A stretch of DNA of 64,000 bases from Cerioporus squamosus (lineage: Eukaryota > Basidiomycota > Agaricomycetes > Polyporales > Polyporaceae), in NCBI GenBank assembly GCA_022592435.1, contig JABYQS010000106.1, positions 62,001 through 126,000 on the forward strand, in the 5' to 3' direction. Numbering within the stretch: position 1 is the first letter of the stretch; every line of letters begins with the position of its first letter. The notes beneath the pieces were generated by a model, which saw nothing but the letters and a program-made list of their open reading frames with translations, searched no databases and was not told the origin of the DNA. Positions 1,855 to 62,408 of the stretch are shown piece after piece. A program made the translations under genes and the position numbers.

Positions 1855-3634
1855 ATGTCCTCCGACGCAGATGCTGCGACCGTGGCCCTATTCGACACCC
1901 TGTACGTCGCATAGCTCGAGGCCTCTTGTTACGGAATACGCATGCTGACACCGCCAGACAGCTATACGGACACCTACTGCGGTGTGGCAGCCGGGGGTGC
2001 GTTCGCGGCACCAATGCAGGCTCGTCCGTGTCAATCTGATGCTTTCTCTCACCGTAGTTCTCTTGATCTACGACACCTTTGTCACGTTAGATCGAGAAGT
2101 GGCATGCTTCTGGACCCTTGAGCGAATCGGCGCGTCACTCTTGTTCTTCGCCAGCAAGTGGTTGCCCCTGGCATACTATGTTATGGAGTTGGTCTCATTT
2201 ACATCTTTCCCCTCGGATCAGGTAAGCAGACGTAGGAGTCCGTGCCGGTCCCATGACAATAGCCTGACTGGATTCAGAGGTTGGTGTGAAGCCTCGCAGA
2301 GTTCAGGATACCGCGTAACGCCCATCAATATCCACAGTTGCTCCTTGTTCAACATGGTGACGCAGGCAATGGAGATACTGCTATTCTTTCCCGGGGCAGG
2401 TGAGTCATGCGTCCAATGCAAAAGTCGTAGTACCTGACACTTCAAGTTGCAATGAGTCTTCTCCGCCCTCCGTGCATATGCATTGAGCAGGAGTAAGCTC
2501 CTCGGACTACTCGTGTTCGCTTTGTCTCTAGCCCCAGTAGGAGCTAATGTGGTGAGTGGATCGTTCCTTGGACCATGTGGACTAATACAGAACATTGCTG
2601 GTCATGACGCAGGTTCCATTTGGCTATCAGTTCTCTGGGGAGAACTTCCCGCCGTTTGGGTGCCTCACGATAGATAACACAACTGTCGCGATTAACATCA
2701 GGTGATCCACTTCAAAGTTCAGTCTCGTCACACACATCGGTACTGACTCTGTACAGGCGTAGGTCGGCTAGGTGGCCAATATCAATGGCGCACGCTCACT
2801 GACAGATATGCGCAGTGACGATTACATCTCGGGTACCCCTGATCGCTGCCGACATTCTGCTCATCTATATCACTTGGACGCAGCTAAGCAGGCGGGAAGC
2901 CTTGAGACATATCCAAAGATCCAAGAGACTCTCACTATCGGATATCCTCTTCCGTGATGGTCCGTTCCTACTGACATCAATGCTGTTCGTGCCCAGTGAT
3001 ATCGCAGTGGCTAACCAAGTACTCCTTCTGCGACATGTACAGGAACCATATATTTTGTGTACGTCACGAAGCGTAGCTGATGGACGGGGATATCTGACAG
3101 ACTTACACATCGTCCATTGTCAGAGTTCTGTTCATCTTGAACGTCCTGCACCTCGCCTTTCGCTCACCGCGGTAAGCCGCATCTCCGCGTCCGTACGCAC
3201 AATCTGATGAACGTCCCCCCGACAGCTGGTGGGCATCGCGGGCAATGGTACGAGTTAAGTGACTGCGTTCACCACCCCGTATGTCCCTAACTGTCCTGGA
3301 ATACAAAAAGCACGCGACAGCTCGCTCATTAGGACTCCATATCCACAGCATCACCACGATCATCGTCTCGCGCTTCCTCCTCGATCTGCAGGAAGCGAGC
3401 CAGATAGTCGTCAGGCTTGACCCCGACGATCCGTTGCATTCCTCGAGGAACCCATACGACACACCCAGCTTCATCTCGTCCCTCGGAGGGTTCATCAATC
3501 CGGAGCTTTCCGCGCGGTCCGATGACGATGATGGGTTCGAGTTGCCAGTTGGCTCGCGCTCCGAGGCCCGGGAGGACTCGGACGGCGGGGCCGCAATCTC
3601 TCAGCAGGCGGCTGCGTCGTCGTCTGCCGCGTAG
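1855..3634 (+). pseudogene. DUF6533 7TM protein, copy B (frameshift and nonsense)
   Basis: The gene starts MSSDADAATVALFDTL and keeps the family's exon plan: a DUF6533 segment (VLLIYDTFVTLDREVACFW), SALRAYALSRSKLLG, APVGAN, and the TSRVPLIAADILLIYITW helix. Two 2-nt micro-exons are needed, AG at 2278-2279 and GC at 2757-2758. The introns around the first are 56 and 58 nt, and those around the second are 55 and 57 nt. Two lesions are visible against the paralogues. Exon 9 lacks one C near 3154 (other copies read GCCCTTTC or an equivalent length), which shifts the frame. Exon 10 also has TAA at 3256-3258 where the others have a Tyr codon in AGTTAC/AGCTAT. The last exon remains open and well conserved, so inactivation looks recent. 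A one-base assembly error could explain the first lesion but not the second. Confidence 0.8.
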
Positions 3635-6106
3635 TTTTCTCGCTGGCCGGGAGCTCCGTCGTTTCTGGCAGTCCGTCCGTGCTCTCTAAGGCAGTATTTC
3701 CGTCGATCTCGGGGTAGTGTCTTTCTCGGTATTTATGATCGAAGTCTCCGCGCAGGTACCATTGTTCCTTGTCATGTATGTATCTGAAAGCGCACCGGTA
3801 GACCAGGCTTCTCATACGAATGCTCTCGGGATTCATACCGCGAAGGCCTCAGGGTTCCCGGTCGCCGTGAACAAATATTGCTCCTCGAGACCTCGGCTCC
3901 GAGTCGTCCCGAGAGTCGAGACCATCAACGTGCACTTCAAGGCGACTCATTACTTCAGACTAACCCTTTGGGAGTTGACGTCGCTCGTTCTCGTTCGCGC
4001 AAAGACAAAGATACTCCACGTTTTGCAGGCTCATCTATTGCTATCTAGCTCGTCGACGGGAGCGCGGTGCACGGACTCTCTCAAACGCCTGATAGTAGTA
4101 CACAACCCGCTACATACCGCAGATTCTCGGCAACGACGCGTGTCTTCCGTGACCATTCGCGTTCCACGACCGCGCAGCAGACGCCGAGTTCTTGAAAGTT
4201 GAGCGTGTATGCGGACATGGCGTCGGCCGAAGTTCCCAATATAATTGGGAGCGTCGATCCCACCAAATATGTACTTACTTAGTTCTTAGACTATCTCCTG
4301 GCTATCTCCGCAACCGTATCGCCCACCTCCCAGAGCACCGTACGGGGTGGAATGCCGGCAGAACCCTCGAACCCTCGAAGATTGACCTCCGTCTGGACCT
4401 GGGTCCTGGAGGTTGGCGCGGCGGAATTGAGAGGTGGAAGCATCGTGGCCGTACATACATAGTACCAGCGCGCGCGCCTCCTCCGAGTCGAACTTTTGGT
4501 GCGTCCAGCCGACGGCCCTAAGTAGTCTCAGTCTGAGCAATTGAAGGACTCACCGGCGAGCGAGCATCTCGGCGTAGCAGAGTCCTGGTGGCGCACGCAC
4601 GCCCATCAGATGGCCACGACGGAGTACCGATCAGCAGCAGGGTGAGTGCTCGGTGCCGGGTGGAGATGGGGACGGAGCGAGCGCGATGGACGGCGAGATG
4701 ATGCGCATGCGGGAAGGTGAGTTGCAGAGATACAGTACACTGGTACTGCACGCTCGCCTGTGGCGTCCTTGTGGCGCGTTTCTCTGCGCGATCGCTCAGA
4801 GTCGCGATGCATGACCTGCTTGCGTTCTTAAGACTCCGGATCGTCGCGAGACCATCGACACGCATTCGCTGGGCGCACTTCCAAGGCGACTCATCGCGAG
4901 CAGTGGCACGCTGCGAGGTGCAGGTACTCTGCAGTGTAAGTGAGACGCAGGGGCATGGAGAGCGTACCGTGGGAGGCCCGGGCGGCAGTCTGGACTCTGC
5001 CCCGAAGGGCCCTAAGTATGTCCGACAAAGATGAGAAGAACGTCGCGGACACGCTGGAGTTTTAGATTTTATGCATTGTGTCGGAACGAGGCGAGCACCC
5101 GTATCCTGCAGGAGACAGGGGCCTTTGTTCTCCGGCGTAGATATATGCGTGACGAGGCTTGCTTTGTACGCTGGGACTGCTCCCGGGCGTGACGTGGTCA
5201 ATGGGAGCGGGGATGAGTCCTTCCTGCATCGCAAGCACGCACACGCCGGGTGCAAGTTCCGTAGTTCAAGTTGTCGACGCACCGAGGAGGTGATACATGG
5301 GCCGTTCTGTCAGCTCCCGGAATGGAGACGTTGCGCTTCGGTGTCAAGGTGCCGTGTTGAAAACGATGGGTCTCGGCCCTGAGTCTGACCGTGAAAACTT
5401 CCGTGAATCCGAGCGCGTTTAGATTGCGAACGCGGGACGCTGGATTTGCGAGGCTGTCCTGCGACTCCTACGGGAGGCGAGTTCACGAAAGTTCCGGAAC
5501 TGCTTACCTCAGGCCGTTTTCCGAGAGGACGCAAGTCGACCATCTGGCGCACCGGGTGGCATCATTGCCTGGCAGGGACGGGAACTGAATGGTTCAGTGC
5601 GCGCGTCGCAGTCGAACGTGCTGGGAACGTGATCTCGTACCCATTCTCCATCATGATGTTCGCTCTCTGCGCAGTTGGACGGCATGCTCGAGTTCTGTCT
5701 TGAGAGGTCGAGGAGGAGATGAGGGCTGCCGTAAGGAACCGGGAAGCAAGCACGAACATGTGTTCGCACACGCCTCCGCCATGCCGAGGCCCACTGGCGG
5801 GGAAGAGTGTCCGAAGTGGGAGTTGCGTTGTCCCCAAGTCGACATACATTTTTCGCTGCGAAAGGCGCGTTGTAGGACGCTGGCGCTGTGTGCAGTCGAG
5901 AGGGTCGTCCGCAGCAGGATGCTCGCTGCGTCGGAGGCTGAGTGCGCCGCGTCGTGGACGCGCCCAGCTAGTGTGTGTTGACGAGGCCTACCGGCTTCGG
6001 ATTCGTGACGGCTCCGCCAGGACAGGAGGTAGCGAGCACAGAGCCCTTAGATGTCGGCGCCATGGGCTGAGAGCACTCGCCAACCACCGTGTTGTCTTAG
6101 AAATAC
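3635..6106. other. Intergenic without recognised gene
   Basis: About 3665-4060 is the duplicated 3' flank shared with copy A. Beyond that I see only unsupported open frames, including a 254-codon one on the minus strand at 4518-5282. That frame has random-looking composition, no intron signals, no domain and no family resemblance. Confidence 0.5.
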
Positions 6107-6532
6107 TGGATGACTTCCCGTAAGAATCTACGGCACTCTGGATGTCCGTAGATGCTGGATCTGAGCTAACGGCCGAGATGCCGAGTACAGATTCAGACTC
6201 CGCTCTCAAACGCCCGTCCGTAAACACGTCAGGCGCCCAAAATCTAGAAGGGGGGGTCGACCCCCCCTTCTAAACTTCAGCACGTCCGTAAATCCTCGCT
6301 TAAGCTCGCTTAGGGCATCGGGAGGACTCAAAAGGCAGTCGCGATCATTACAAATCCTGTTGGCATCAACAAATACCGTATTGGGCGCTGACAAATGCTG
6401 ACATAAGAGTCCCGCCGAGGATGAGCCGTCCAGCGTCTGGTGGTTCAGCGCCCAAGAGATCCAAGGGAGATCAAACTCCGCAAGCGAGCATTTACGGCGA
6501 TTTGGCCGTAAATTCTTACGGGAAGTCATCCA
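6107..6532. mobile_element. MITE-like element, 27-bp terminal inverted repeats
   Basis: The left end TGGATGACTTCCCGTAAGAA (from 6107) is matched by its reverse complement ending at 6532. The two termini agree over about 27 bp with one mismatch. The interior repeats CCGTAA/TTACGG-type motifs at about 6118, 6147, 6220 and 6287 and near the right end, a subterminal-repeat pattern typical of DNA transposons. It also holds a perfect 28-bp palindrome at 6245-6272. No coding capacity is present, so it is non-autonomous. No clear target-site duplication could be read, so the superfamily is open. Confidence 0.75.
6245..6272. repeat. Perfect palindrome with G7/C7 arms
   Basis: TAGAAG, a run of G, TCGA, a run of C, then CTTCTA form a gap-free palindrome inside the miniature element. 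Seven G and seven C flank a SalI-type GTCGAC core. Confidence 0.85.
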
Positions 6533-6579
6533 CTGCCGCGCCTGTACTCTGTACCAGCGGGATACAAAAGCTAGATCTC

Positions 6580-6604
6580 AAAAAAAAAAACAAAAAAAAA
6601 AAAA
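6580..6604. repeat. A-rich tract
   Basis: A run of about 24 A with one C interruption lies just outside the MITE-like element. It could be a retroposon tail or simple low-complexity DNA. No SINE or LINE body was recognised upstream. Confidence 0.6.
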
Positions 6605-7040
6605 GAGTGCGCCGCGTCGGGATGAGGGCGGCTGCTCGGATGCATCGGTTGCTAGACGACGCTTAAGGTACGGGGTGGCTGTGCTATCGATAGCTGGCCT
6701 CGGCTCGGTTGGGCGCGTGTGCTCTGTGCGGGTCTCATCTCCGTCTGCCACGCACAGCGGCGTCGATCGCGGGTCGTCCATGGTGGCCGAGCGGGCGCGT
6801 TGCAGACTGTTGCAGACAAAGGTGCGTGTTGCTCGCTATTGTGGCCGTTGCCCGAGGGCAGCAGAGAGCGCGAGGGTGGAGACAAAGACGGACAAAAGCT
6901 GTTGCGGCGATGCGTGGGACACGGGAGAACAAATGAGAGGCGTCGATGCGCGTTGGCCAAGGCATTGACCCCAGAACGCATGTGGCCGGGATCCACCCGA
7001 AGCGCACGCAGCCATAACCCGTCCTCTTTGCGCGTTTTGT

Positions 7041-18984: not shown

Positions 18985-20989
18985 TTATGGGGTGGAAGAC
19001 GAGGACACAACAGCCTGAGGTAACCCAGTCTGGCCAACATCTTCCTGCTCCTCGGGAGCCTCTGGGTTTGAGCAGACTTGCAACTCGAGACTATCAGCAT
19101 TGGACTGCACTGATGGATTTGGATTGATGGAACCTCCCAAGGATGAGATGAAGCTCGGTGTGCTGTCATACTGGTCCCTCGAGGAGTATAGTGGATCATT
19201 GGGGTGGAGTCTGACAACCATCTGGTTTGATTCTTGCAGAGCAAGTAGGAAGTGTGAAATAAGGATGGCTGAGAGGCTGCAAAGGGGATAGTTGAAAAGT
19301 GGTTCGGATGAGCATGCCATTACAGAATATAACAAGGATAAATGCGCACGGGGCAGTGAATGTGGTGACATCACTTGCACCCTGTACTCCATCTAATGCC
19401 ACCTGTCAACATGATAGTGATCATCAGCTGGCAAAGTTGGAAGCAGCAAGACATGTTTACCAAAGTTGCTGTGAAGATGAGGTGTAGAACATTCATAGTG
19501 AACAGGATGCTAATATTCAGTGTTGCAGAGTTAACCAGATCTAACAACCTTGCAGCAGGACATACATGAAATATATGACTCCTGTAGGTAAACCCAGGCA
19601 TTCAGTGATATATGGAATCCTTCAAATTGCATACAGAGAGACATACCACCTTGGAAAAGTACTTCTGACAGTGAGGGTTTCTTGGATTGTTGAATATCCC
19701 TCAAGGCACCCCAGCTGCCAGTACTCAGCCTTGTCCAGGTACTGTAGAGTTTCGACCGATGCGGTGCAGGCCCCAGCGGGGTGTGACCTGTAACCGCCCG
19801 CAGTCGCCGGAGCGGAGCGGAGGCGCCCACAATTTGCCTGATTTGGCCTGCTAAACACCCGAAAACCGAGCCAAACGCGAAAATGGGGGCCCCAAAGGGG
19901 CCGTGACCTGTGACCTACAGCTCGATGCGGTGCGGCGGAGGTCCCTGTGACCTGTGACGCGCCGCATCGGTCGAAACTCTACAGTAATGCAGATCAGTAT
20001 AATGTCGGCAGCAATGAGTGGTAATCGAGATATGATTGTTACTGTATGGGTTAAGCATAAGTTTGTGACATTGCTTGTGATTGCCAGCCAACCTACACCT
20101 TGTACATTATTAGTACCAATGTGTGTAATGAGATTGAGCAGGCCATACTTAAGGTTGAGCACAGCAGTTATGTTGTCTGTTGCAAGGCATCCCAATGGTG
20201 TGAAGCTCTCTCCAGATAAGTGATAGCCATAGATCACCTGTACCATAGACCTTGGTGTTGGCTGACATGCTTCAAGGAATGTAGACATACTCACCAGGTT
20301 AGCACCTACTGGCACTAGAGACAAAGAGAAGACAAGCAGTCCAAGGAGCCTGCTTCTGCTCAATACATGTGCACGGAGGGCAGAGAAAGCTCATAGCAAG
20401 TGTCAGGTACTATGAGTCGAGACTGGAGGCATGACTCACCTGCTCCAGGAACAAATTGCAATACCTTCATTGCCTGTCCTGCTATGACAAACAAGGAACA
20501 ACTACAAATGCCATTGAGCATTCTGCAATACTGTGTACTCCATGAGGCCATACACAAACCTCTGATCATGGTCAGATTTGCAATAGGAGGAATTCAGAAC
20601 TGCTTACCTTGTCTGATGGGAAAGATGTGAATGAGACCAAAACCATGACAAAGATTGCCATGTTAATCCATTTGTTTATGAAGAACAAGAGTGACGCTCC
20701 GCCAGGGCGCTTTGCTGTCCAGAAGCATGCCACTTCTCGATCAAATGTGATGAAGGTATCATAAATGAAGAGAACTATGGCAAGACAATGCATGAGGTTC
20801 ACTCAAATGAGCTTGTGATTGACTGAACGCACCTGAGGCTGCCACTTTGCAGTAGTTGCTTGTATAGCTGTTTGGTGGTGTCAGCAAGAGTTATCTGTGA
20901 CAACGGGCCTCACAAGATGCAACATACAAGGCGTCAAACAAGGCCACGGTGGCAGCAGCAGCAGCAGCAGCATCTGCGTCGGAGGACAT
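18985..20989 (-). pseudogene. DUF6533 7TM protein, copy C (MITE-interrupted, CpG-depleted)
   Basis: The gene starts MSSDADAAAAAATVALFDAL and shows all family exons: LFIYDTFITFDREVACFW, LLGLLVFSLSLVPVGANL, TIISRLPLIAADIILICIT, ILFTMNVLHLIF, and a tail ending SSSSTP with its stop at 18985. Micro-exons AG (20561-20560) and GT (20098-20097) keep the frame. The helix-5 exon is split by a 243-bp transposon at 19742-19984 flanked by TA. Conceptual removal leaves a continuous exon that matches the paralogues (ITWTRLS...). No other lesion was found, although the sequence is strongly depleted in CG dinucleotides compared with its paralogues. It was probably silenced first and interrupted later. Confidence 0.85.
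19742..19984. mobile_element. 243-bp TA-flanked MITE inside copy C
   Basis: The ends CTGTAGAGTTTCGACCGATG and its reverse complement form inverted repeats of about 26 bp with one mismatch. TA stands on both sides (19740-19741 and 19985-19986) as the target duplication, as in Tc1/mariner elements. The interior repeats the motif GTGACCTGTGAC several times and codes for nothing. Unlike the surrounding gene it is rich in CG, suggesting a younger arrival. Confidence 0.9.
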
Positions 20990-25809: not shown

Positions 25810-27556
25810 ATGTCCTCCGACGCAAGTGCTGCTGCCGAAACAGTGGCCCTGTTCGAAACGCTGTGCGTTGCATATATTTGGACTGTCCGTTGCAGATATG
25901 CTTGCTGAAATCGCCGAATAGCTATCCCGACACCTACTGCAACATGGCAGTCTCAGGTGCGCACAGTCCATCTCGTCACCTTGTCCGTCATATGAAACTT
26001 CAACCTCATGGGCGGCGTCCTCGCGACAGTTCTAGTCATCTACGAGTCCTTCGTCACGTTGGATCGCGAAGTGACGTGTTTCTGGACCGCTAAATGGACC
26101 GGCGCGCCACTTCTGTTCTTTGCGAACAAGTGGATCTCAATGACATTCTACTTCACCACGTTGGTTTCATTTGCGTCTTTTTCTTCGGACAAGGTGAGCA
26201 ATTTGAGTCTTTGTAATCGCCATTTGAACTGACACCCCGGAGCACTAGAGGTCGGTTCATGTTCCACAGCATTGACAGCACTACAGAACGCGTGTCGCTT
26301 CTACAGTTGTTCCATCTTCGCATTCACGCAGGAGGCGATATTGGTACTGCAGTACCTTCCCTGGGCAGGTAAGTGAGCTAGGGATTGTGATAATTGATCC
26401 GTACCTGATCTATTGCCCTTGAACATTGGAGTCTTCTCCGCCCTTCGAGCATATGCGTTGAGCATGAGCAAGCCGCTTGGACTGTTCATCCTCGCTGTGT
26501 CTCTTGTTCCAGCAGGTGCTAACCTGGTGAGTGGTTGAATAATCTAGTCTGACCTCGGCTTATCCGCTACGCAGGTCATCTACAGTTATCACTTCAATGG
26601 AGTGAGAGTCCCGTCATTCGGGTGTTTTCAAACAAGTAATACGAGTAGGGCGGTTTACCTAAGGTTCGGGCTCCTCACTTCTATCCTACTGACATATTCA
26701 TTGGTACTGACAACTTGCAAGACGTACGTTGGCACTTAATGATCTGCGGTAGCGGGCGCTCACGCAACAAGATCACCCAGTTGTCATCATCTCTCGAGTG
26801 CCGCTCATCGTCGCTGATATTTTACTCATCTACATCACGTGGACAAAGATACGCAGTCGGGATGCGCTCAGGGATCTTCAGCAGTCCAAGAGAATGTCGC
26901 TCTCGGATATCCTCTTCTGCAATGGTGAGTCCCTCTACGACATAGGCTCAGAAAATGGTGACTGACTATCCTCTCTGCACCTGCGAAGGCACAACATACT
27001 TCGTGTATGTCCCTTTGCTGATGACTTAGCTATCGAATCATCTCTAACTCATCAATGAACAGAATCATGTTTATCCTGAATGTCCTCCACGTCACCCTGT
27101 CGGTCACGTCGGTAAGCCGCACGCCATGTCTCACGCGCCTAACTGCATGACAGTGTTGCCTTCACAGGTTGCGATCAATAACAACTCATGGAGTTACGTG
27201 ACCGTATTCACTCCCCCGTAGGCATTTCGACATAAGTGCGCGATGGTACAACTCCTGACTCACCAGTGCCCTCCATCTTCAGTATCACAACAATCCTCGT
27301 GTCGCGCTTTCTCTTGGAACTGCAGGAAGCGAACCAGACAGTCATCAGAGTCGACCCCGATGACCCGCTGCATTTCTCGAGGAACCCATACGACGACACC
27401 CCGAGCTTCATATCTTCCCTCGGAGCTTTCATCAACCCCGACGTGCCGGCACCACGCGACGATCATGCTGACTCGCACGTTGACTCGGTACGCTCGGAGC
27501 CGGAGGTGGAAGGTCAAGGCCAGGCGTCTCAGGCCGCTGTGTCGTCTTCCGCGTAG
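25810..27556 (+). CDS. DUF6533 7TM protein, copy D
   Basis: This copy is intact. The start MSSDASAAAETVALFETL is followed by the DUF6533 segment VLVIYESFVTLDREVTCFW, SALRAYALSMSKPLG, SRVPLIVADILLIYITW, FILNVLHVTLSV, ITTILVSRFLLELQEANQ and the tail DDPLHFSRNPY, SFISSLGAFINPD. Seven hydrophobic helices with a short N terminus and a tail of about 80 residues are predicted. Two 2-nt micro-exons are required: AG at 26249-26250 (between 55- and 56-nt introns) and AC at 26722-26723. Further tiny exons occur, for example 16 nt (GCACAACATACTTCGT). The TATA-like ATAAAGCC lies about 45 bp upstream. The role is unknown; the topology is receptor-like. Confidence 0.87.
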
Positions 27557-34812: not shown

Positions 34813-36574
34813 TTAGGCGGAAGACAATGTTCCAGCGGCCTGAGACTCAGAGACCGGGAGCCCGCCTTCCTCCATTCCATCCGAACGCGAGACGTCGTGC
34901 GAGTCAAGGTCATCGTCGGACCCCGCCGGAACATCCGGGTTGATGAAGGCTCCAAGGGACGAGATGAAGGTTGGCGTGTCGTATGGGTCCCTTGAGGAGT
35001 GCAGCGGATCGTCGGGGTCGACTCTGACGACCGCCTGGTTCGCTTCTTGCAGGTCGAGGAGGAAGCGCGAGATGAGGATAGCCGTGATGCTGTATATGGG
35101 CCGGGAGGAAGGTGGTGAGTAAAGCGCTGCAGTATATGAGGGGTGCGGTGAATGCATACGGGCCGGTAAACACGGAAACGAGACTCCAATTCCCATTGCC
35201 TGCCACCTGTCGAAGCGATGACGATGACGAGCCTGTGAGTCAGACGGGCGAGACAGTACATCTAGCTTACTGCAGTTACGGTGAAGACCAAATGTAAGAC
35301 GTTGAGGCTGCACAGAGCTCTGCCGACGAAGGTATGAGTCGGTCATCTGTAGTCACTCAGCCCTCTTGCTGGACTTACACGAAGTACATCGTTCCTGTGA
35401 ATGGTACGGCATCAATAGTATCCTACAGTATCCTTGGAATATCGCCGTAGTGAGACATACCGTCACGAAAGAGGATATCTGATAATGACAGCCTCTTGGA
35501 CTGCCGGAGTTTCCTCAGGGAGCCCCTATTGCTTAACTTCATCCAGGTGATGCAGACGAGTATCAAGTCGGCGATTATGAGCGGCACCCGCGCAACGAAT
35601 ATGACTGCACGTTTCCTTGGATTAGCGTGCATTATTGCACCTAGTAACGAGCCGACGTACGTCTTACACGAAGTCAGTATACGATCATATGAGATGGGAT
35701 GGAGAGAGCCGAACCTTAGCTCGACTGCCTCAGTTGTGCTGTCACTTTCGAGGCATCCAAATGGCGGGATGTTTTCTCCAATAAGTTGGTGGCGATATTG
35801 AACCTGCGTGTCGCGCAGTCTGCGTCCCGTCAACATGATCCGAGGAACACATGTTCACTCACCAAGTTAGCACCTACTGGTGCGAGAGAGAGCACGAGTG
35901 CGAGGGATCCGAGGAGCTTGCTCCTGCTCAAGACGTACGCACGAAGGGCAGAGAAGACTTGTCGCAAAACGTCAGGACTCCTGCTTCGAGAATGGAAGCA
36001 TGACTTACCCGCCCCGGGAACGAACTGCAGTATCTGCACTGCATATAGGACATTGATGAACACGGAACAACTGTGAACATCAAACGTCATGCGTCAATCC
36101 GCTGGGCCGGTACACAAGCTCTGCGGAACTGAACACGGACCTCTGATTCAAGTTAGATATCGCCATGGCACGGACTAAGACGACTGCCTTACCTTATCCG
36201 AAGGAAAGATGCAAACACCACGAACGCCATGACATAGATCGTCATGGAAATCCACTTGTTCGCGAAGAACAACAGTGGCGCCCCGGTCCACCTAGCGGTC
36301 CAAAAGCACGACACTTCCCGGTCGAACGTGGCGAACGCGTCGTAGATGAACAGCACTACAGTTATGGAACACGTCAATTGGACACTGGATCGAGTCTGCG
36401 ATGTGGAGAACGCACCTGAGGCTGCCGCAGCGCAGTAATTTCCGGTATAGCTGTTCGGCACCGTCAGCAAGCGTCGACTTGACAAAAGAGCTAAGGAAAT
36501 AGGACGTACAGAACATTGTATAAAGCCACGGTCGCAGCAGCAGCACCGGCATCTGTGTCGGAGTCGGAGGACAT
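34813..36574 (-). CDS. DUF6533 7TM protein, copy E (one-base deletion, possibly rescued)
   Basis: The start is MSSDSDTDAGAAAATVALYN, and family exons follow: LFIYDAFATFDREVSCFW, SALRAYVLSRSKLLGSLALV, ARVPLIIADLILVCITW, VVRVDPDDPLHSSRDPY, SFISSLGAFINPD. Micro-exon candidates are AG (36142-36141) and AC (35662-35661). At the end of exon 3, TCTTTCCTTCGGATAAG lacks one C relative to the paralogues (TTTCCCTTC), so exon 3 ends in a different phase. If the 2-nt AG exon is included the frame is lost. If it is skipped, exon 3 joins exon 4 as ATAAGTTGTTCC and the family sequence SCSVF resumes. The other exons read through. It may therefore be functional through skipping, or a very young pseudogene. Confidence 0.75.
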
Positions 36575-38146: not shown

Positions 38147-39875
38147 CTACGCGGAAACCGATGAGGGCGAGGCGGCCTGAAACTTCGAGACCTGGGCTCC
38201 GCCTTCCTCCTCCCGGTTTGGGCACGAGACGTCGTCCAGCTCGAGCTCATCGTCGGACGATGCTGGAAAATCCGGGTTGATGAAAGCTCCCAGAGATGAT
38301 ATGAAGCTTGGTGCATCAGACGAGGAATGTAGCGGATCGTCGGGGTCGACGCCTCTGACGACCATCCGGTTCGCTTCCTGCAGATCCAGGAGGAAGCGCG
38401 AGACGAGTATGGCTGTGAGACTGTAAAAGGAGAGTGACAGTAAATAGAGAATCGCAGTAACGTGCGGTTATGATGAAATGCATACGGGCCGGTGAAATTG
38501 GTCGCATAACTTGCGCCGTCGCCCGTGATCCCCAGCTGCCCAGGTAACGGTTAATTCAGGTCAGACCTGGGAGACAGACCATGCTTCTTACCGCAGTCAC
38601 CGAAAGGACAAGATGCAGAAGGTTGAGAACGGACAGAACCCTGACGAGGAGGGTATGAGTTCCCCTCAGGTAACCCGTAAGCTTTGCGGCAGCCTGACGT
38701 ACACAAAGTAGATTGTTCCTGCGTGCGGTGTAGAATACGTCGTAAGCCACGATGGCCTCCCACGCATTGTTACTGAAAGACGAACCATCACGGAAGAGGA
38801 CGCTTGCAAGCGACATGGAGTGTCGCGTATCCCTCACTGGAGCGCTCCTACAGCTCAGCTTAGTCCAAGTGATGTAGATGAGCACGATGTCGGCAAAAAT
38901 GAGTGGCACGCGAGAGGCGACTGTGACTGTGCACCAATCGTTGGATGAGCGGGTGCTGAAGGTCATGATCACTAGTCAACCTACGCCTTATTTCGAAGTC
39001 AGTACGAAGTCAGATGAGGTGAGAACGGAGAAAGCCAAACCTTAAGGCAATCGGTTCAGTCACACTGGTGTCTTGGAGACATCCAAAGGGCGGGTAATTT
39101 TCTCCAGAGAACTGATAGGCGTATCCGACCTGCATAGTCGATGAGTCTGCACCCGTTCATGCGATGCGAATGACATTAAACCACTCACCAGATTAGCACC
39201 TACTGGTGCTAGAGAGCAAACGAGAACAAGTAGTCCAAGCAGCGAGCTCCTGCTCAACACGTAGACTCGGAGGGCAGAGAAAACTCATGGCAACGCATCA
39301 GATTATTCTCTCCGAGCAGTAAGAGCAAGACTTACTAGCCGCGGGCACGAGTTGAAGCACATTCACTGCTTCATATACAATTTGGAACGAAGAGCAACTG
39401 CGGTCGTCAACGATCAACTTGCGGTACTCTGAGCTCTGTGAGGCTGTACACGAACCTCTGGATCCGGTTAGATATAGCCTCAGCATGAACTGCGGTAACT
39501 TACTTTATCAGAAGGGAAAGATGCAAGGCTGACCAAAAACATCACATAGAGCGCCATTGATATCCACTTGTTTGCGAAGAACAAGAGCGACGCCCCGGTC
39601 CGCTTGGCGGACCAGAAGCAAGCCACTTCTCGATTGAACGTGCAGAAAGTGTCGTGAATGAAGAGAACTACGGTGGGAATACGCGTTAGGTCGACAGGGC
39701 CGGATTCGCAATGATAAGCACGGACCTGAGGCAGACACATCGCAGTAATCCTCGGTATAGCTGTTCGATGTGTCAGCAAGCGTTGTACGGAATGAGAGGC
39801 TTGAATTGGAGATGCGACGTACAGGGTGTTGAACAGGGCCGCGGTTGCAGCAGCAGCATCTGCAGCGGAAGACAT
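38147..39875 (-). CDS. DUF6533 7TM protein, copy F
   Basis: This copy is intact. The start MSSAADAAAATAALFNTL is followed by LFIHDTFCTFNREVACFW, SLLGLLVLVCSLAPVGANL, ASRVPLIFADIVLIYITW, VLSVLNLLHLVLSVTA, LTAILVSRFLLDLQEAN and the tail DDPLHSSSDAPSFISSLG with its stop at 38147. Micro-exons AG (39457-39456) and GC (38996-38995) are needed for frame. The tail lacks the RDPYDT segment seen in the sisters, and the loop before the conserved DPDDPL has an extra residue (VVRGVDPDDPL). TATAAAGCCCGG lies about 75 bp upstream, and the conserved upstream module at 40211-40232. Confidence 0.86.
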
Positions 39876-50404: not shown

Positions 50405-52204
50405 ATGTCCTCCGACGCAGATGCTACTGCTGCAACCGTGGCCCTATTCGAATCCCTGTACGTCGCACATCTCTAGCTCGCACTCACGGTACAAAGCTAC
50501 AGTAGCTAACACCGCCGAACAGCTATACCGGTGGATACTGCGGACTGGCGGCCGCCGGTACGTCATGCTCATCGCAAGTTCGTCCTTCAAGTTGCCGACC
50601 TCAAACGTTCTCTCGCCGCAGTTCTCTTCTTTTACGACGCCCTTGTCACATTCGATCGGGAAATGGCGTGCTTCTGGACCGCCAAGTGGACCGGAGGGCC
50701 GCTCCTCTTCCTCGCCAACAAGTGGATTTCCATGTTGTACTATGTTGTGGCGTTGGTCACGTCCGCATCTTTCCCTTCCGATAAGGTGAGCAAGAATAAC
50801 CCCGGTACCACGGCGATACATGTCTGACCAGAATCAGAGGTTGGTGTCTAGCCTCCCAGAGCTCAAGAATAATGATTGCAGATTGACCATCGCCCTTCGT
50901 AGTTGTTCCTCGTTCGTGATGGTGCAGCAGGCTGTCCAGGCACTGCAATTCATCCCGGGAGCCGGTAAGTCACGTTTCCAGTATCCATGAGGAAGTATCT
51001 GATGTGTTACCATGAGTCTTTTCCGCCCTTCGTGCATATGTATTGAGCAAGAGCAAGCTTCTCGGCATACTCGTCTTTGCGTTGTCACTAGCACCAGTAG
51101 GGGTCAATCTGGTGAGTGGATGAATACTCCTTGGATCATGCAGATGGACGAAGACTGGTCACCCATGCAGGTCAAATACGGCTATCACATCTCGGGAGCA
51201 AATCTTCCGCCGTTTGGATGCCTCGGGACAGACAACGAGACCGAGGCACTTTCAGTAAAGTTCGGCTCTCCCCATCTGATCTCAAGATCTTTCAATACTG
51301 ACTTGATACAAGGCGTATGTACTCTAGCGAGTATATGCAGTGGCGCACGCTCATCCGAGACACTGCACAGTCATAGCCGTCTCTCGAGTGCCGCTCATCG
51401 TAACCGACTTGCTACTCGTCTACATCACCTGGGCGAAGACAAGCAGTAGGAGCACATTGAGGGATATGCGACAGTCCAAAAGGCTGTCGCTATCGGATAT
51501 CCTCATTCGCGACGGTGTGTCTCTCTCCAGCAATATCAGATGTGCCCCGAACGTCGTGGCTCATGATCTCTACACTGCACACAGGAACAGTATACTTTCT
51601 GTATGTTCCGCAACACGGCCGAAAGCAGACCGGACTGACTGACTTACGCGCTTGGCTACCAGAGTCCTCTTCATCCTGAATATCCTCCATCTGGTTCTTT
51701 CGGTGACCGCGGTAATGCGCATAGCTGGTCTCATGCTCGTTCACTGTAAGCTCATCCTCCATTTGATCTCACCAGATAGCCGCCAATTCACTAGGGAGCT
51801 ATGTGACCTACTTCACCACCCCGTACGCATCTCGCCATAACCACAATATGCCGTGACTGTCTACTCATTACCCAGCTCCTTTTTGCAGCCTCACCGCCAT
51901 CCTCATCTCGCGCTTTCTCCTTGACCTGCAAGAGGCCAACCAGACGGTCGTCAGACTCGATTCTGACGACCCGCTGCATTCCTCGAGGGACCCCTGGGAC
52001 GACACGCCCAACTTTATCTCTTCCTTTGGAGCATACATCAACTCAGACCTTCCGGCGCGGCCCAACGACGATCTCGGCTGGGACGTCGCATCGCACCCTA
52101 AGGGGGAAGGCAGCTCGGTCGAGACGTCTCAGCTCGAGGCCACTGCGTCTTCGTTGTCGTCGCCATCTTCTACTTGTTCTGTGTCGATATCCGCTTCAGT
52201 TTGA
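50405..52204 (+). CDS. DUF6533 7TM protein, copy G
   Basis: This copy is intact. The start MSSDADATAATVALFESL is followed by LFFYDALVTFDREMACFW, ANKWISMLYYVVALVTSASF, SALRAYVLSKSKLLG, SRVPLIVTDLLLVYITW, VLFILNILHLVLSVTA and LTAILISRFLLDLQEANQ. The tail DDPLHSSRDPWDDTPNF differs from most sisters (WDD for YD), and the C terminus is Ser-rich (SSLSSPSSTCSVSISASV). Micro-exons are AG (50838-50839, between 52- and 63-nt introns) and GC (51313-51314). Without the first, exon 4 enters the wrong frame. A 16-nt exon (GAACAGTATACTTTCT) also occurs. Helices are predicted as in the other copies. Upstream module and TATA are present. Confidence 0.87.
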
Positions 52205-54952: not shown

Positions 54953-54959
54953 TATAAAG
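54953..54959 (+). promoter_or_regulatory. TATA box of copy H
   Basis: CTCGAGTATAAAGCCCGGT, shared almost exactly with copy I, lies 58 bp before the start. Confidence 0.7.
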
Positions 54960-55010
54960 CCCGGTGACCCCTAGGCTCTGACAAAGTCACGGCCATCACT
55001 GAACTCCAGC

Positions 55011-56766
55011 ATGTCCTCCGACCCAGATGCACCTGCTGTCCCCGCAAACATATTCGACGCCCTGTACGTTGCACATCTCTAGCCTGCTCTCCCGGGACAA
55101 CGCTAGCTAACATTTTGAACAGATATACTGCGACTTACTGCCAAGCGGCAGCCTCTAGTGCGTCCGCTTTTAGGCTATCGAAACCTTGTCCCTTCTCAAC
55201 GTCACGCCTTTTGACCCGTTAGCTCTCTTCATCTATGACGTCTTCGTCACGTCCGATCGAGAAATGGTGTGCTTCTGGACCCCCAACTCGAAGCGGACCG
55301 GAGCGTCGTGGTTTTTCTTCGCAAACAAGTGGATTTCCATCACGGCCTATGTAATGGTCCTGGTCAGCTCGGCCACCTTCCCTTCGGAGAAGGTGATTCA
55401 TCTCTGTCCGTGCCATGGCAGTTTCTAACTGGTTTCAGAGGTTGGCGTATAGCTCTGGGTACTATGGAATGATTGGTGTGACATGGCACGCAGTTGTTCC
55501 GTGTTCACAAATGCAGTTGCGGCAACAGGTGCACTGCAATTGGTTCCCGGGGCCGGTAAGTCGACCATGCTTTTGGTTCTCGGAACACGGTACTTATCCG
55601 ACGTGTTGCTACGAGTCTTCTCTGCCCTCCGTGCATACGTGTTGAGCAGGAGCAAGCCCCTTGGGATACTTGTCCTCGCTTTGTCTCTTGCACCAGTGGG
55701 TGCCAATCTGGTAAGTGAATATACCATCCTTGAACAATTTGTATGGCTTCCTGAGAGACAGGCTCATTATGACTATCATATATCTGGAGAGAACCTCCGA
55801 CCGTTTGGATGCCTTTGGGCAGACAATACGACTGAGGCAGTCAATCTAAGGTTCAGTTCTCTCAATGTCTTCGCGTATCGACTGGTACTAACTTCGTACA
55901 AGGCGTAGGTTGGCCAGTGCCCATACACATGACTCATGAGCGCACGCTCATCTGAAGAGCTACACAGTCACAATCGTCTCTCGAGTACCACTCATCGTCG
56001 CGGACACGTTTCTCATCTACATCACCTGGACAAAGCTGAGCAGCAGTGGCGGCGCCATAGGGAACATCCGACAGTCCAAGAGGCTGTCGCTATCGGATAT
56101 CCTCCTCCGCAACGGTACGTTTTCCTGTAGCAATGGTGGACGTGCTTCAGGATGTTGTGGCTCATGATCTCTACCGTTCCGTACGCAGGAACAATGTATT
56201 TCGTGTACGTCCCCCAAAACAGCCCATTAAAGACCGGACAAAGTCTCACACTCGTCATTAGAGTTCTGCTTACTCTGAATACCCTCCACCTTGTCCTTTC
56301 GGCATATACGGTAAGCCCTACGATCATTCCACTCCTTCTATCTGCGTTGATTTTGCTCTCGGCAGCTGGCAGACGAGGCCTCCAGAGGCCTGAGTTATAT
56401 CACCATATTCACCGGCCCGTACGCATTTCACCTAAACCGTGGGATACTGCGACCCTCTACTCACTACCACTCCCCCTTTGTAGCCTCACAGCCATCCTCA
56501 TCTCGCGCTTCCTCCTCGACCTGCAAGAAGCAAACCAGGCAGTCGTCAGAGTCGACCCAGACGATCCGCTGCATTCCTCGAGGGACCCATACGACACTCC
56601 TAGCTTCATCTCGTCGCTCGGTGCTTTCATGAACCCGGATCGTCAACCAGCGCCGCATGACAGTGACCTCGAGTGGGACGTTGGTTTGCGCTTGGATGGG
56701 GAGGAGGAAGGCGCAGCCCAAGTCTCAGATCTTCAGGCCGTTGTGCCGTCGTCGTCTTCCGCGTAG
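55011..56766 (+). CDS. DUF6533 7TM protein, copy H
   Basis: This copy is intact. The start MSSDPDAPAVPANIFDAL is followed by LFIYDVFVTSDREMVCFW, ANKWISITAYVMVLVSSATF, SALRAYVLSRSKPLGILVL, SRVPLIVADTFLIYITW, LTLNTLHLVLS, LTAILISRFLLDLQEANQ and the tail DDPLHSSRDPYDTPSFISSL, stop 56764-56766. Micro-exons are AG (55439-55440) and GC (55903-55904). A short insertion (TPNSKRTGAS) lengthens the first loop relative to TAKRTGAS-type sisters. Exon 3 uses an acceptor shifted within CCGTTAG compared with the family's ACCGCAG but keeps the frame. Confidence 0.87.
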
Positions 56767-57833
56767 TCGGCATTCGGTTCTCTTCTCGATGCTGCCGTCC
56801 TAGCTGCCACATGTCCGACAATCCCACCGGTCGGTCTCATTGTCATACCGCTTTTCCGGAGTTCCCGTACAGATGCAGACTGAGAAGGTCTAGATGTACT
56901 CGCCGTCACTGGTCCTTGTGCATGTGTACCGATCGTACGGAGGACTTGCTTGGCGAGTAGTAGCGGTGGTCGTGCAGAGACCTATGTATAATGAGGACTA
57001 CGACAACTCCGCAACGTGGGAGCTGAGCTAGCTAAGCTTAGGAGCAGAGCGGAGGAGGGAGTTATCATACAGCTCGACGAAGACGATGCCGCGACCAGGA
57101 CGTCGCGACCACGTGGTTCCAGCCACAGACGCGCCCGGCCGCGCTGTGGAAACCTGCAACTCTGTCCGAGACGGCGAGCTCGCGATTCCCTGCTCTCCAC
57201 ACGTCCGTTCATGCCAGCCGCTAGCTTGGTCCTAGTGCTTCACTTTCGTCCACGGCTCGTCAACATCTGCAGATCTGAGGTCTGGCCAGTCCACTAGCAC
57301 GCACGTCGGAATCTTCCTTGTCCCTCCACCGGGCAAGCCCCATTCGTGCCCACTCACCATGGCTCCCGCTGTATCCACCCGTCTCTCTCATAGTGCGTAC
57401 GTGCTTACTGATATGCAGTTGACGTTTCTGTATGTACTCAGGCTCAACTCAGGCTTTCCTGCAGCTAGGTCCGCGCGCGCTCTTCCCGTACTATGGATTG
57501 CAACTGGCGACCTCGCGCCCTCTGCATGCAACGAGACGGCCACGACGCGTAGTACGCAGTAAGGATATTGCTACGGTGCTGGGAGGACGCTGTGAAGCTG
57601 AATGAAGTCTGGGACGTCGTTGGGTGAACGTCTACCGAGTCCTGACCGTGGTGAGTATCTACGTTCTCCAGCCATATCTCCCAGTACCAACTTTTTCCCA
57701 CCGCCGTTGGCTCTCTAGATGACGGCAAGGATGCTAGATGCCCCGTGACGCGGCTAAACACGACTCCAAACCCTGACTCCCGTACTACGATCTCACTCCA
57801 TTCTACCTCGCCACCGCCATCGCTAGTGACTTG
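56767..57833. other. Intergenic without recognised gene
   Basis: I see nothing convincing here. Confidence 0.5.
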
Positions 57834-57979
57834 CAAGTCCCGGCCTCAGGCCGTCAAGCCGTGAGGCCGAGCCGCCCTGCAGGCCGGGACGAGACGAGCC
57901 TTGGTGGCGGCTTTGGACGGCCTGAGGGCCCGGCTTGCGAATATATTAAGCCCAAGCCGAGCCGTCAGGCCGGGGCTTG
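57834..57979. repeat. GC-rich MITE-like repeat
   Basis: CAAGTCCCGGCCT at the left is roughly inverted at the right (AGGCCGGGGCTTG). The interior repeats AGCCG, AGGCCG and GGCCTGAGG motifs. A related GC-rich block lies at 58268-58410. Confidence 0.55.
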
Positions 57980-58267
57980 AGCGCTGTCCCGTTCACGCCC
58001 TCGATGAGCCCAATGACCTGTCAGAATGGGTCAGAACTCTCCGTGTACTCAGTTTTCCAGACTCACATGCATACTAAGTATCTGGGATCCCCTGCTCTTG
58101 ACATGCGTCCGTAAGCACAGCAACCTGCGCGCTCAAGAGAAGAACTGCCAAATCACATTTAGGGACTCCCTGACATGTCAGGTGTGTACATTGAACTCGA
58201 GAAATCGCTCACACGTGCCGCGAGACTCGCCCAAATAGCCGTAGTCCGTGCCCTGTCAGTACTCCTC

Positions 58268-58410
58268 TTCAGCCAACCAAAGCCGCGGCCTGAGCCGGGA
58301 CGAGCCCCAAGGCCCGGCCTGAGCCGTCCTCGGGGCTCGTCCTGGAGGTCCACAAAGCCCGAGCCGTCTGAAGCCGGGCCCAAGCCCCGGGCCGCCATCG
58401 CTACCCTCGT
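58268..58410. repeat. GC-rich repeat related to 57834-57979
   Basis: Runs of AGCCGGGACGAGCC, GGCCTGAGCCG and AAGCCCGAGCCGTC match the motif vocabulary of the element 290 bp upstream. Ends were not defined. Confidence 0.45.
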
Positions 58411-58737
58411 GGTGCACGAGCATGTATGTATCCGTCTCTGCAACTAAATGGTTGCCGACGCTCCCCCGCCCACAGCACCGACATTGCGTCTACGCCAACA
58501 CCGACCTCCAGACCACAATATACAATACATCTGAGACGACTGCTCCGACGAGGATACTCAGGCTGCGCACAGCCTCTTTCAGGACGAGTGCCCGTCCGGT
58601 GAGTAACAACTTTACAAGCTCCCCCAAAGCTCTCCATCCATTTCCTCCCGCCCGCCGCCGGGCACATCTTCCCAACCCACTTCCGTCAGGAACACATCTC
58701 TGACATTCTTCTCGTTTCCATGCTTGTCTAGCAGCCA

Positions 58738-59190
58738 GCACGGCCTCGTCCGGAAGCTGGACCATGACCACTGGGAGCGCCTCCTTCTCCTGGCCATCTG
58801 CAACGTCCGTCTTCGGGTGTGAGCAGCGACAAACCAGCGACGTTGATCACGTCCCCGACTTCTGCAAGTACGAGCAATTGCCGCGAGTGCGCTCGAGGAC
58901 AGCCTCGGCTTCGGCTTTGGTGCGGATGAGGGCGTTAGAGTGGCTCTGGCCGGGCCATTGCGGGCGCTGTGATTCATCCATCGTGGTCGACTCGAGCTCG
59001 CGATCTTCCGCTCGTTCTGTGAGACTCCTACCTCGCCGTTCTGTCTCTCCGATACCCCCGGGATATTCGCCAATCCGTCAGCGCCTTTTGGTCGTCGTGT
59101 TCTTCACACACAAGCGGCCTCTGTCGACGCGCACCACACGTACAAACCTGACTATATGCCTATATGCGTGCGATCGCCGGGCGTTGCGGT
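58738..59190 (+). repeat. Segmental duplication, left copy
   Basis: Similar in the same order to 63243-63570. Shared blocks start at CGGCCTCGTCCGGAAG, continue through ACCACTGGGAGCGCC and GACTTCTGCAAG, and reach TACAAACCTGACTATA and GTGCGATCGC. In one frame it reads TMTTGSASFSWPSATSVFG, a Ser/Thr-rich stretch, so the unit may derive from a secreted or surface protein gene. Confidence 0.65.
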
Positions 59191-59469
59191 CTAGGACTCC
59201 TGTCGTGTTTCGTTCCTACCCTGCAGGCAGTAACAGCACGCCGAGACCACCCCTCTTGTCCTTCCGACCACACTTCTACCCACGTGTTTCGCCGGGCACC
59301 AGACTTCGAGTCCGCAACGCACCCTCTTGGACCTACCAAGGCGGCAGCGACGGGAAACGGACGATCCTCCGGTGGATGTCCAAAGACGAGCCAGGAGAGA
59401 ATCACCGCACCTCGTGGAGCCGCGGCCGTTCAGCGTTCAACGTTTAGCGATGGAGGTGGCGGAACTGCA

Positions 59470-59950
59470 TCTTCGCTGATGTGGACCAGATGCCGAGTAG
59501 GGATACTCGACCTCCTCGTCTTCGAGCCGTGTGCCGCCAGGGACAACCTCCCCGTCGCTCAACTGCACCGTCGCATCCGTCACAATCGTCCCGGGCTCCT
59601 GCGTCGTCGGCTCCATCGTTCTCGCAGTGTCCTTCGCGATGTTCTCAAGCTCGGGGAGCACCGCCAGCGCATGGTCCCCTCGCTCTCTGCCACTTGATTG
59701 TTCAACGGACTGCCCGCCATTCGCAGTCGAGGGGTGGGCGCCGCGCGTAGAAGCGCGAAGGCGGTGCGGCAGTTCAGGAGGCTTCATCGTGACCGCCGCG
59801 ACCGCGTACAGGCGTCTTGCCCTCCGTCTAATGGGCGCACTATCTTCTACCTCACCAGAAGTGCGACACCGCTGTTGGATGCTGTGCCCGATGTCACTGG
59901 CAGTCAACTGCGTCGCACGGGCGTACATTGTACTCTCACCCGTGAAGGGC
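59470..59950 (-). pseudogene. Decayed fragment related to the 41464 coiled-coil gene
   Basis: A minus-strand frame reads HALAVLPELENIAKDTART, then TDATVQLSDGEVV and RLEDEEVEYPYS. These parallel DALSVLPELEDIIKDDVV, EDATLQSNDWEVD and RLGDEEEDEYDS of the 41464 product in order and spacing. Upstream, TQLTASDIGHSIQQ may match ERLASDMIRRINDA. Neither the N-terminal third nor the C-terminal helix was found, so it is a partial copy. Confidence 0.65.
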
Positions 59951-60579
59951 TCGGAGACAGTTGAGCTGGGGCAGTGATGGGGAACCAAGATGCTGCCAGT
60001 GGACAGCAGCTAAGGTTAGAAAGGATGGCGGTGCGAGTGTTGTGCCAGCGCAGATGAAGGGACACATTGAGGCCGTTCAGCAGTTAGAGAGCGTCCAGGG
60101 TGACAGAGCTTAAAGGAGTACGGCGTCAGACCCAACTTTGGTACACAGCAAGCGGCAAAGCCAGCATGTCGTGGAGGATCCTGGAGGAGTAGCTGCGAGA
60201 ACTGGAGGCTAACCTTGTCAGTGCGTCCTCAGGGTCTTGACTTCGGTCGCCTGTGCATCGCACATGGGCGGGACTTTGAACGGAACTCGTGTGTTGATTC
60301 ATCTGAGTATTCTCTTGACCGCACGCCTGATTCGCCTACAGATTAACTCGTCTACCACTGCTCATGGGTCACCCAATTGGCCGGACCAATAGTGGTTGGG
60401 CTACAAGCAGCTGCAACGCTCGTATGCTGTACGAACTTGCGCCCGCACATATCTTCTATCGTAGTTGACGTGATTGGGTCAGACGCAACGGTCAGATATG
60501 GCGGGGGCGACTAGTGCGCATATCTCCGTGCCCATCGAGGAGACAGCGCCCAAGAGGTCACCGCATCGCTCTGCTCGAG
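59951..60579. other. Intergenic, upstream region of copy I
   Basis: The conserved module (CATGGGCGGGACTTTGAACG, 60263) and a CCAATTGG/CCAAT region near 60370 are the only signals I see. Confidence 0.5.
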
Positions 60580-60586
60580 TATAAAG
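60580..60586 (+). promoter_or_regulatory. TATA box of copy I
   Basis: CTCGAGTATAAAGCCCGGT lies 84 bp before the start, and is the same as for copy H. Confidence 0.7.
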
Positions 60587-60663
60587 CCCGGTTGTGGAAT
60601 GGTTGCCGTTGCTATCCCGCGGACCCGACAAGTCGAAGGCGACGGCCGTTACCTCACTCCAGC

Positions 60664-62408
60664 ATGTCTTCCGACGCAGATGCCGCCGCCGCCGCTATCG
60701 TATTCGAATTTGATGCTCTGTACGTTCTCGACTCCATGTTCAAACAGACAACACTTGCTCACACAGCTGGACAGCTATACTCAATGGTACTGCCAACTGG
60801 CAGCCTGTGGTGAGTTCCTGCCATCACAAGCTCGTTCTCGTCAATCTCACGTTTTCTCTCACCGCAGTTCTCTTCCTTTACGACATTTTCGTCACATTCA
60901 ATCGAGAAGTGGCCTCCTTCTGGGCTGTCAAGCGGACCGGAGCATCGTTCTTGTTCTTTGCGAACAGGTGGATTTCCATGACATTCTACACGATGGTGTT
61001 GGTCGTGTTTGCACCATTGCAGGTAAGTGGTGTTAGTATATGCCATTGGGACCATACTTGACTGGATTCAGAGGTGGGTGCATAGCCTCGCCGACTCCTG
61101 AGATCACTGCAGGTTTACTTGTGAACATGCAGTTGTTCTAGGGTCCGTAGCGCGATTGAGGTGATGCAAATACTGCAATTTGTTCCCGGTGCAGGTAAAC
61201 GGTCACCTTATCAGTCATAACGAAGCCACTAATGCATCATCACAAGTCTTCTCCGCTCTCCGTGCATATGTGTTGAGCACGAACAAGCTCCTCGGAATGC
61301 TCTTTCTCGTTTTGACTCTCGCGCCAGTAGGTGCCAACCTGGTGAGTAGATTGATATTACCTGAACGGTGTGGATAGACGCAACCAATTTGGGATGCAGG
61401 TTCACTTTGGCTATCCGCTTTTCGGACAAAACTACCCGCCGTTTGGATGCCTCCAGATAGTCATTATCAATCAGGCGATAGAATTAAGGTTTGGCTCTCT
61501 TCATCAGGCTCGTTCTCGTATGACATTGTATTGACTTTGTGTAGGCGTACGTTGGGGATCGTATCGGCAGCCGGAATGCGCACTCATCCAAGGAACCACA
61601 CAGTCACAATTGTCTCTCGAGTGCCCCTCATCCTTGCCGACATCCTGCTCATCTACATCACCTGGACGAAGCTAAGCAGTAGGGCCGCCCTGATGAATAT
61701 TCGACAGTCCAGGAGGATGTCGCTTTCATATACTCTGTCTCTTGATGGTATGTCTCTACAGCATAGTGATACATGTCTCAGTCATCGACAGGACTGTTTA
61801 CGGTACTTGTTCTACAGGAACCATATACTTCGTGTACGTGCTGCAGTACAGCTGTCCCTGGACTTTCTGACGGACCCAACACTTCTCATCAGAGTGTTGT
61901 TTATTTTGAACGTCCTCCACCTTGCCCTTTCTGTGACCGCGGTAAGCCCATACCGCTTCGCAGGAATGGCTCATCTTGCACCTCTGATCTTTGATGATTG
62001 TTGCCTGTGTAGCTGGCTGGGAGTCAGGCCAGCGGCGTGAGCTATGTCACTGCGTTCACTGCCCCGTACGCATCTCAGCGTAACCACAGTCTACTGCGAT
62101 TCTTGTCGACTCACAATCACTCTCTTCGCAGCCTGACAGCCATCCTCATCTCGCGGTTCCTTCTCGACCTGCAAGAAGCAAACCAGGCCGTCGTCCGAGT
62201 CGACCCCGACGATCCGCTGCATACTTCGAGGGACGCCTGGGACGACACACACAGCTTCCTTTCATCGCTCGGAGCATTCATCAACCCGGATCTTCCAGAG
62301 CGGTCTGACGGATTCGGCTCGCACGACGTCTCGCGCTCAGATGGAGTGGAGGAAGACAAGGCCCAGGCCTCTCAGGCCGCTGCACCTTCGTTGTCGTTGT
62401 CGGTGTAA
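60664..62408 (+). CDS. DUF6533 7TM protein, copy I
   Basis: This copy is intact. The start MSSDADAAAAAIVFEFDAL is followed by LFLYDIFVTFNREVASFW (the usual Cys of ACFW is Ser), ANRWISMTFYTMVLVVFAPL, SALRAYVLSTNKLLGMLFLV, SRVPLILADILLIYITW, VLFILNVLHLALSVTA, LTAILISRFLLDLQEANQ and the tail DDPLHTSRDAWDDTHSF, stop at 62406-62408. Micro-exons are AG (61072-61073) and GC (61545-61546, with an excellent GTACGT donor after it). The loop SFPSDK present in the sisters is replaced by APLQ. An upstream in-frame TGA before exon 4 excludes reading through without the micro-exon. Confidence 0.87.

Follow-up and report, generated by a model that had tools for sequence, protein, structure and literature searches.

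The stretch of Cerioporus squamosus DNA analyzed here (the window; 64,000 nucleotides (nt), contig C9:62001-126000) carries eight DUF6533 genes (A to H) that pose the same question at two of their exon joints: a pair of short introns encloses just two letters, and the gene can be read either with those letters as an exon or without them. In our reading, which rests on genomic comparison and to which we assign a probability of roughly 0.93, each gene would contain two obligatory 2-nt coding exons (micro-exons), each lying between two ordinary GT-AG introns of mostly ~45-65 nt. The first (site 1) would form positions 1 and 2 of the codon that precedes an invariant cysteine (usually AG plus T or C, giving Ser), and the second (site 2) would complete one codon at position 3 and open the following one at position 1 (usually Arg/Lys-Leu in the subfamily of the window). 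DUF6533 has been described as basidiomycete-specific, and the DUF6533 protein SNB1 was reported to be a seven-helix membrane protein (PMC10949477).

Reading frame, recurrence and intron loss

Models were built using a spliced protein-to-DNA aligner that we wrote, which sets no limit on exon length and accepts introns of 40-160 nt in all phases. It was applied to the eight genes of the window together with 69 close relatives (77 close loci), and family-profile runs were made on distant members (31, then 51 plus two alleles); the final run comprised 130 modelled loci, alleles included, all from one genome (54 Mb in 988 contigs). These loci are a chosen part of the DUF6533 matches in the genome, of which there are at least 150 (236 candidates, 150 scored); we passed over apparent duplicates, and another 40 regions were left out.

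The reading frame requires two letters, modulo 3, at each site. The ratio of nonsynonymous to synonymous substitution (dN/dS) was taken for three segments in 66 of the 77 close loci. Read in the proposed frame, its median is 0.27 for the segment preceding site 1, 0.31 for the one lying between the sites and 0.25 for the one following site 2; read in the other frames, it is 1.08-1.48. It follows that all three segments are translated as proposed and that 2 nt modulo 3 are added at each joint. Codon-position variability leads to the same result: exon 3 closes on codon position 3 and exon 4 opens on position 3, while exon 7 closes on position 2 and exon 9 opens on position 2, which leaves each joint 2 nt short. 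By both tests, omission of the 2-nt exon breaks a frame that is under selection, at site 1 as at site 2.

Diverged members of the family share the 2-nt length. A 2-nt exon was modelled at site 1 in 109 of the 124 models that span it and at site 2 in 105 of 121; exons of ≤6 nt occur elsewhere only three times in the 130 models (profile columns 127, 246, and 66), with five more lying within a few profile columns of the two sites. Among relatives the recurrent exon lengths are 35, 161-170, 2, 62, 95/98, 80-98, 2, 126-150, and 16 nt, and the same arrangement is found in distant members, whose exon 3 shares 32-50% identity with that of gene B (where listed). Micro-exon length is conserved and the letters are variable: at site 1, AG is found 89 times, GG seven, CG and AC three each, GC and CT two each, and AT, GT, and AA once each (n = 109), and at site 2 there are eleven pairs, with GC the commonest (55 of 105). 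The encoded residues are steadier, with Ser at the site-1 codon in 89/109 models, Cys as the next residue in all 109, and Leu at the second site-2 codon in 83/105 by way of differing splits (e.g., GT+TA, GC+TC, and AC+TT). When exons of ≤6 nt were forbidden, the alignment score fell in all 74 + 49 loci that had used one (median loss 28 and 18 bits), by more than 5 bits in 72/74 and 45/49.

Splice signals around the micro-exons are those of ordinary introns. GT..AG borders stand on both sides in nearly all models; the flanking introns have medians of 51/59 nt at site 1 and 55/56 nt at site 2 (other introns in these genes: 54-65 nt); their donor statistics are broadly similar to those of other introns; and branch-point-like motifs precede the four flanking-intron acceptors with frequencies that fall inside or close to the range seen in other introns. 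The site-1 downstream donor has G at +5 in 96 of 108 models. A strict motif ([ACT]AG-NN-GTNNG, both introns 40-85 nt), sought in loci preselected as modelled with a 2-nt exon, was present at site 1 in 68/70 close and 27/38 distant loci (means in dinucleotide shuffles 2.4 and 0.9) and at site 2 in 64/64 and 40/40 (shuffle means 0.9 and 0.6); without such preselection, the figures are the 109/124 and 105/121 given above.

Where a paralog has lost a flanking intron, the letters survive as exon sequence. In three diverged paralogs, L093, L108, and L111, a single intron (51, 60, and 56 nt, respectively) precedes a 64-nt exon that unites the 2-nt and 62-nt exons: these genes no longer have the intron downstream of the first micro-exon, whose letters lie in frame on the next exon and give Ser-Cys, Asn-Cys, and Ser-Cys, respectively. 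A tree of 53 members puts these three in three places among micro-exon members; L111 groups beside L083 (support 98/88), the other two placements are weakly supported, and a single origin would also be formally compatible with the tree. At site 2, the letters of L107 are fused to the preceding exon (89+2), a weaker case because the donor is GC (GCACGT). The preliminary description of this DNA had called a 2-nt exon the simplest frame-keeping splicing at each site, which is borne out, in the window and across the loci analyzed, by the frame constraint, the frequency among models, the in-frame fused paralogs and the score penalty.

A 2-nt exon should be too small for acceptor and donor factors to sit on it together. 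Because such factors would not fit on both of its ends simultaneously, the two flanking introns would be removed one after the other, each probably recognized as a unit (intron definition), since introns here are short and uniform in size. The arrangement probably dates from before the family radiated in this genome, and would have been kept like other exons: exact intron position is retained in 107/116 and 109/116 models at site 1 and in 103/115 and 107/115 at site 2, compared with 93/112 to 116/116 at other introns. Given that the micro-exon introns have persisted about as faithfully as the others, nothing appears to require a regulatory role for the micro-exons.

Rival accounts and opposing observations

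Site 1, with its tandem CAG-AG-GT, could in principle be a built-in switch, in which choice of the first AG would include the 2-nt exon and yield the membrane protein; we consider this improbable, and the other arm, in which the second AG would act as a zero-length recursive site and give a frameshifted, degraded message, is improbable to the same degree. Were there such a switch, many paralogs would be gated by one splicing choice. The zero-length recursive site would also suit a nested twin intron (stwintron), whose inner intron is removed first and whose two letters are then discarded with the outer intron; two abutting introns of ~55 nt removed successively resemble the layout of fungal stwintrons (PMC5639578). 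As described there, however, stwintrons leave zero coding letters between the introns, whereas the DUF6533 sites appear to keep two, judged from the frame and the fused paralogs. Discarding the letters would break a frame under purifying selection on both sides, paralogs without the downstream intron retain them as exon, and the letters are not AG in 104/105 site-2 models or in 17/38 distant members at site 1, which makes a stwintron very unlikely. We also give little credence to a single intron of ~110 nt with a shifted donor or acceptor, or to a longer exon (5, 8, or 11 nt), as the means of restoring the frame. An 11-nt exon was modelled in L103 and a 5-nt exon in L113, and an 8-nt exon is an option both for gene E at site 2 and, ending before a GT at +7, in 35/108 models at site 1, only eight of which have G at +5. 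Yet no single alternative common to the family was seen, whereas the 2-nt solution is common to it; the fused paralogs hold exactly two extra nt; and both the cost of forbidding micro-exons and the intron medians given above speak against these solutions. That the genes are frameshifted pseudogenes with an unused micro-exon is hardly credible: some copies are degenerate, with a frameshift or stop in 16/77 close loci under a frameshift-tolerant model, spread over many exons, but dN/dS is low over all three segments and the same arrangement recurs in the distant members.

Several observations, including the 8-nt option just described, weigh against obligatory 2-nt exons. Fifteen of 124 models at site 1 and 16 of 121 at site 2 lack one; some of these are intron losses, others are degenerate copies, and for a further group the aligner preferred a different join, for example at site 2 in L014, L029, and gene E. 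For gene E, the first model took the GC expected by homology, whose context is AAATAAG-GC-GTAGGT, and later models prefer an 8-nt exon (38973-38980). In gene D, the frame is broken upstream by the exon-3 deletion, and the frameshift-free model skips its site-1 micro-exon; the frameshift-tolerant model keeps AG there and scores a frameshift. L067 is like gene D, with exon 3 one letter short and only micro-exon skipping keeping the frame, and L081, whose exon 4 measures 61 nt, also has a model that skips the micro-exon. In the chance test, a 6-nt spacing was likewise above chance (site 1: 20/70 close and 7/38 distant; site 2: 38/64 and 5/40), as were a 0-nt spacing at close site 2 (26/64) and an 8-nt spacing at close site 1 (15/70). 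This excess is probably due mainly to overlapping GT or AG within the conserved site (GTNNGT, AG-NN-GTAGGT); of these three lengths, only 8 nt would restore the frame. The genome yielded no joined (reverse-transcribed) copy: the motif with the micro-exon included gave three matches against six for a reversed control, and the joined motif with the exon skipped gave 31 against 35 for its control, so that both counts are at control level and favor neither reading.

The counts themselves have limits. Alleles and near-identical duplicates (e.g., L015/L016, L044/L045, L060/L063, and L102/L114) are among the loci, so that independent genes are fewer than 130, and the family profile was derived from models that contain micro-exons, so the model counts depend in part on the hypothesis. 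The frame test and the intron-loss test are less exposed to this circularity than the counts are. The preliminary description had placed the micro-exons in every testable gene; this stands for the window, where all eight copies have the arrangement at both sites, and is too strong genome-wide.

Window genes and their relatives

The features of the eight genes are given in Table 1. The acceptor-AG-GTNNG(T/C) arrangement that the preliminary description had listed at site 1 is found in all eight copies, and 15 of its 16 micro-exon positions are right (8/8 at site 1 and 7/8 at site 2, minus-strand positions being the lower of the two bases); the exception, 38995, should be 38985-38986. Its site-2 letters (GC, AC, GT) fit the copies if its lettering gives the copy at 2278 the label B, and with the same offset its copy E, said to carry an exon-3 deletion, is the copy at 36141, in which the deletion is of 1 nt.

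Table 1. Positions of the DUF6533 genes and of their 2-nt exons in the window.
Feature	Position	Strand	Letters	Introns up/down (nt)	Remarks
Gene A	1855..3508	+			spliced model; tail uncertain
Gene A exons	1855-1901, 1962-1996, 2058-2221, 2278-2279, 2338-2399, 2457-2551, 2613-2701, 2757-2758, 2816-2959, 3043-3058, 3124-	+			
Gene A site 1	2278..2279	+	AG	56/58	
Gene A site 2	2757..2758	+	GC	55/57	
Gene B	19117..20989	-			extra sequence interrupts long exon downstream of site 2
Gene B site 1	20560..20561	-	AG	46/58	
Gene B site 2	20097..20098	-	GT	50/55	
Gene C	25810..27442	+			spliced model and Pfam
Gene C site 1	26249..26250	+	AG	55/56	
Gene C site 2	26722..26723	+	AC	58/57	
Gene D	34933..36574	-			exon 3 is 163 nt, 1 nt short
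Gene D site 1	36141..36142	-	AG	50/70	sequence intact
Gene D site 2	35661..35662	-	AC	52/56	
Gene E	38270..39875	-			spliced model
Gene E site 1	39456..39457	-	AG	46/58	
Gene E site 2	38985..38986	-	GC	54/58	letters by homology; introns from first model
Gene F	50405..52051	+			spliced model and Pfam
Gene F site 1	50838..50839	+	AG	52/63	
Gene F site 2	51313..51314	+	GC	53/56	
Gene G	55011..56640	+			spliced model
Gene G site 1	55439..55440	+	AG	46/53	
Gene G site 2	55903..55904	+	GC	52/63	earlier model: single 112-nt intron
Gene H	60664..62294	+			spliced model
Gene H site 1	61072..61073	+	AG	40/59	upstream intron 49 nt with stronger gtaagt donor
Gene H site 2	61545..61546	+	GC	56/57	

Three proteins were scanned against the Pfam DUF6533 model (PF20151; curated cut-off 24.1), and all exceeded the cut-off: gene C with 43.9 bits (E-value 2.6e-11), gene F with 46.5 bits (4.1e-12), and L093 with 53.0 bits. 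The match covers 43-46 residues and lies entirely upstream of site 1 in each. DUF6533 genes are clustered on contig C9 (132 kb), which has at least six copies more than the eight of the window (starts near 1485, 5351, 22981, 60878, 127025, and 131196). Near-identical locus pairs on separate contigs are common, e.g., C158/C379 and C101/C480, with equal DUF6533 scores, which suggests that both haplotypes of a dikaryon were assembled.

Certain copies have peculiarities of their own. In gene A, the window positions 3253-3258 hold, by eye, an in-frame TAA (AGT TAA GTG) in place of the Tyr codon that most other window copies have in the tail, a probable premature stop that would cost the protein its final 60 residues at least. 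A foreign-looking stretch (VEFRPMRRVTGHR in one frame) is common to gene B (~19741-20041, in the exon after site 2) and to exon 4 of L073, where it sits downstream of the site-1 acceptor; by eye, it gives the impression of a mobile element inserted in both genes. L048 (C5:17641-19591) agrees with L037 where intron 3 begins, over the ~50 nt compared, and then runs into unrelated sequence, and this intron probably carries an insertion. At site 1 of L041 and L120, AG is followed by GCAGGT, a probable GC-AG intron, and L041 has the alternative of GT with a GT donor. The 16-nt exon (~GTIYF; window 3043-3058 and its equivalents) is also conserved in nearly all models, with its two introns at the exact position in 108/113 and 111/112. 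The idea that 1-nt deletions cluster around the micro-exon (gene D, L067, and L034 are in frame if it is skipped) was dropped because frameshifts are scattered across exons, and L118, a candidate paralog lacking either site-1 intron, was not used, its alignment being gapped there.

Other ultra-short exons and meaning for the family

Ultra-short exons are already known as a kind, given that 1-nt exons have been published in plants and in Fusarium. Transcript proof was reported for those of APC11 and VPS55 (PMC8831610), and the APC11 exon, found in Arabidopsis and land plants and described as missing from annotation (PMC4674806; PMC8831610), is the closest parallel: as with the DUF6533 exons, it is ultra-short and frame-essential, relatives that have lost the introns keep the letter, and intron definition combined with recursive splicing has been proposed for it (PMC4674806). 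The preliminary description had held that exons this short challenge exon-definition models; with introns of ~50-65 nt in these genes, and that proposal already made for the plant exon, there is little challenge to splicing theory. The DUF6533 exons differ from the APC11 exon (in plants, 1 nt, one per gene) in being 2 nt long, two per gene and present at about a hundred loci including alleles, and in being known here from genome sequence. In Fusarium, the 1-nt exon of CYP621A was reported, with support from RNA reads, in 20-24 genes, with the same letter throughout, and was hinted at by a long composite intron of 139 nt (PMC12940212). That system shares with ours a fungal host, a frame argument, and an intron-lacking relative as a marker of length; it is, however, ascomycete and RNA-supported, whereas the DUF6533 family is basidiomycete-specific, has variable letters and two sites, and is known here from genome sequence.

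Exons of 2-5 nt, the size class of those described here, were reported in Arabidopsis, Drosophila, and human (Volfovsky 2003, as cited in PMC12940212). The P450 genes of Phanerochaete chrysosporium are also a basidiomycete multigene family with micro-exons, the shortest reported being 6 bp (PMC1184071) versus 2 nt in DUF6533 genes. In the open-access literature searched, no report of paired 2-nt exons of the DUF6533 type was found, and the aspects that look new are the scale, the presence of two per gene, the basidiomycete host, and the intron-loss intermediates.

Gene finders were reported to miss the 1-nt exons of Fusarium (PMC12940212), and automatic gene models of the DUF6533 family may well be wrong downstream of site 1; that the Pfam match ends before site 1 in the three scanned proteins may be a consequence of such mis-modelling, but this is a guess. 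If the reading with two obligatory 2-nt exons is correct, a single genome would offer roughly a hundred natural loci, counting alleles, the majority of them with two such exons, and their variable letters and intron-loss paralogs would make the family a test bed for how the spliceosome handles exons too short for exon definition, as well as for the order in which the flanking introns are removed.

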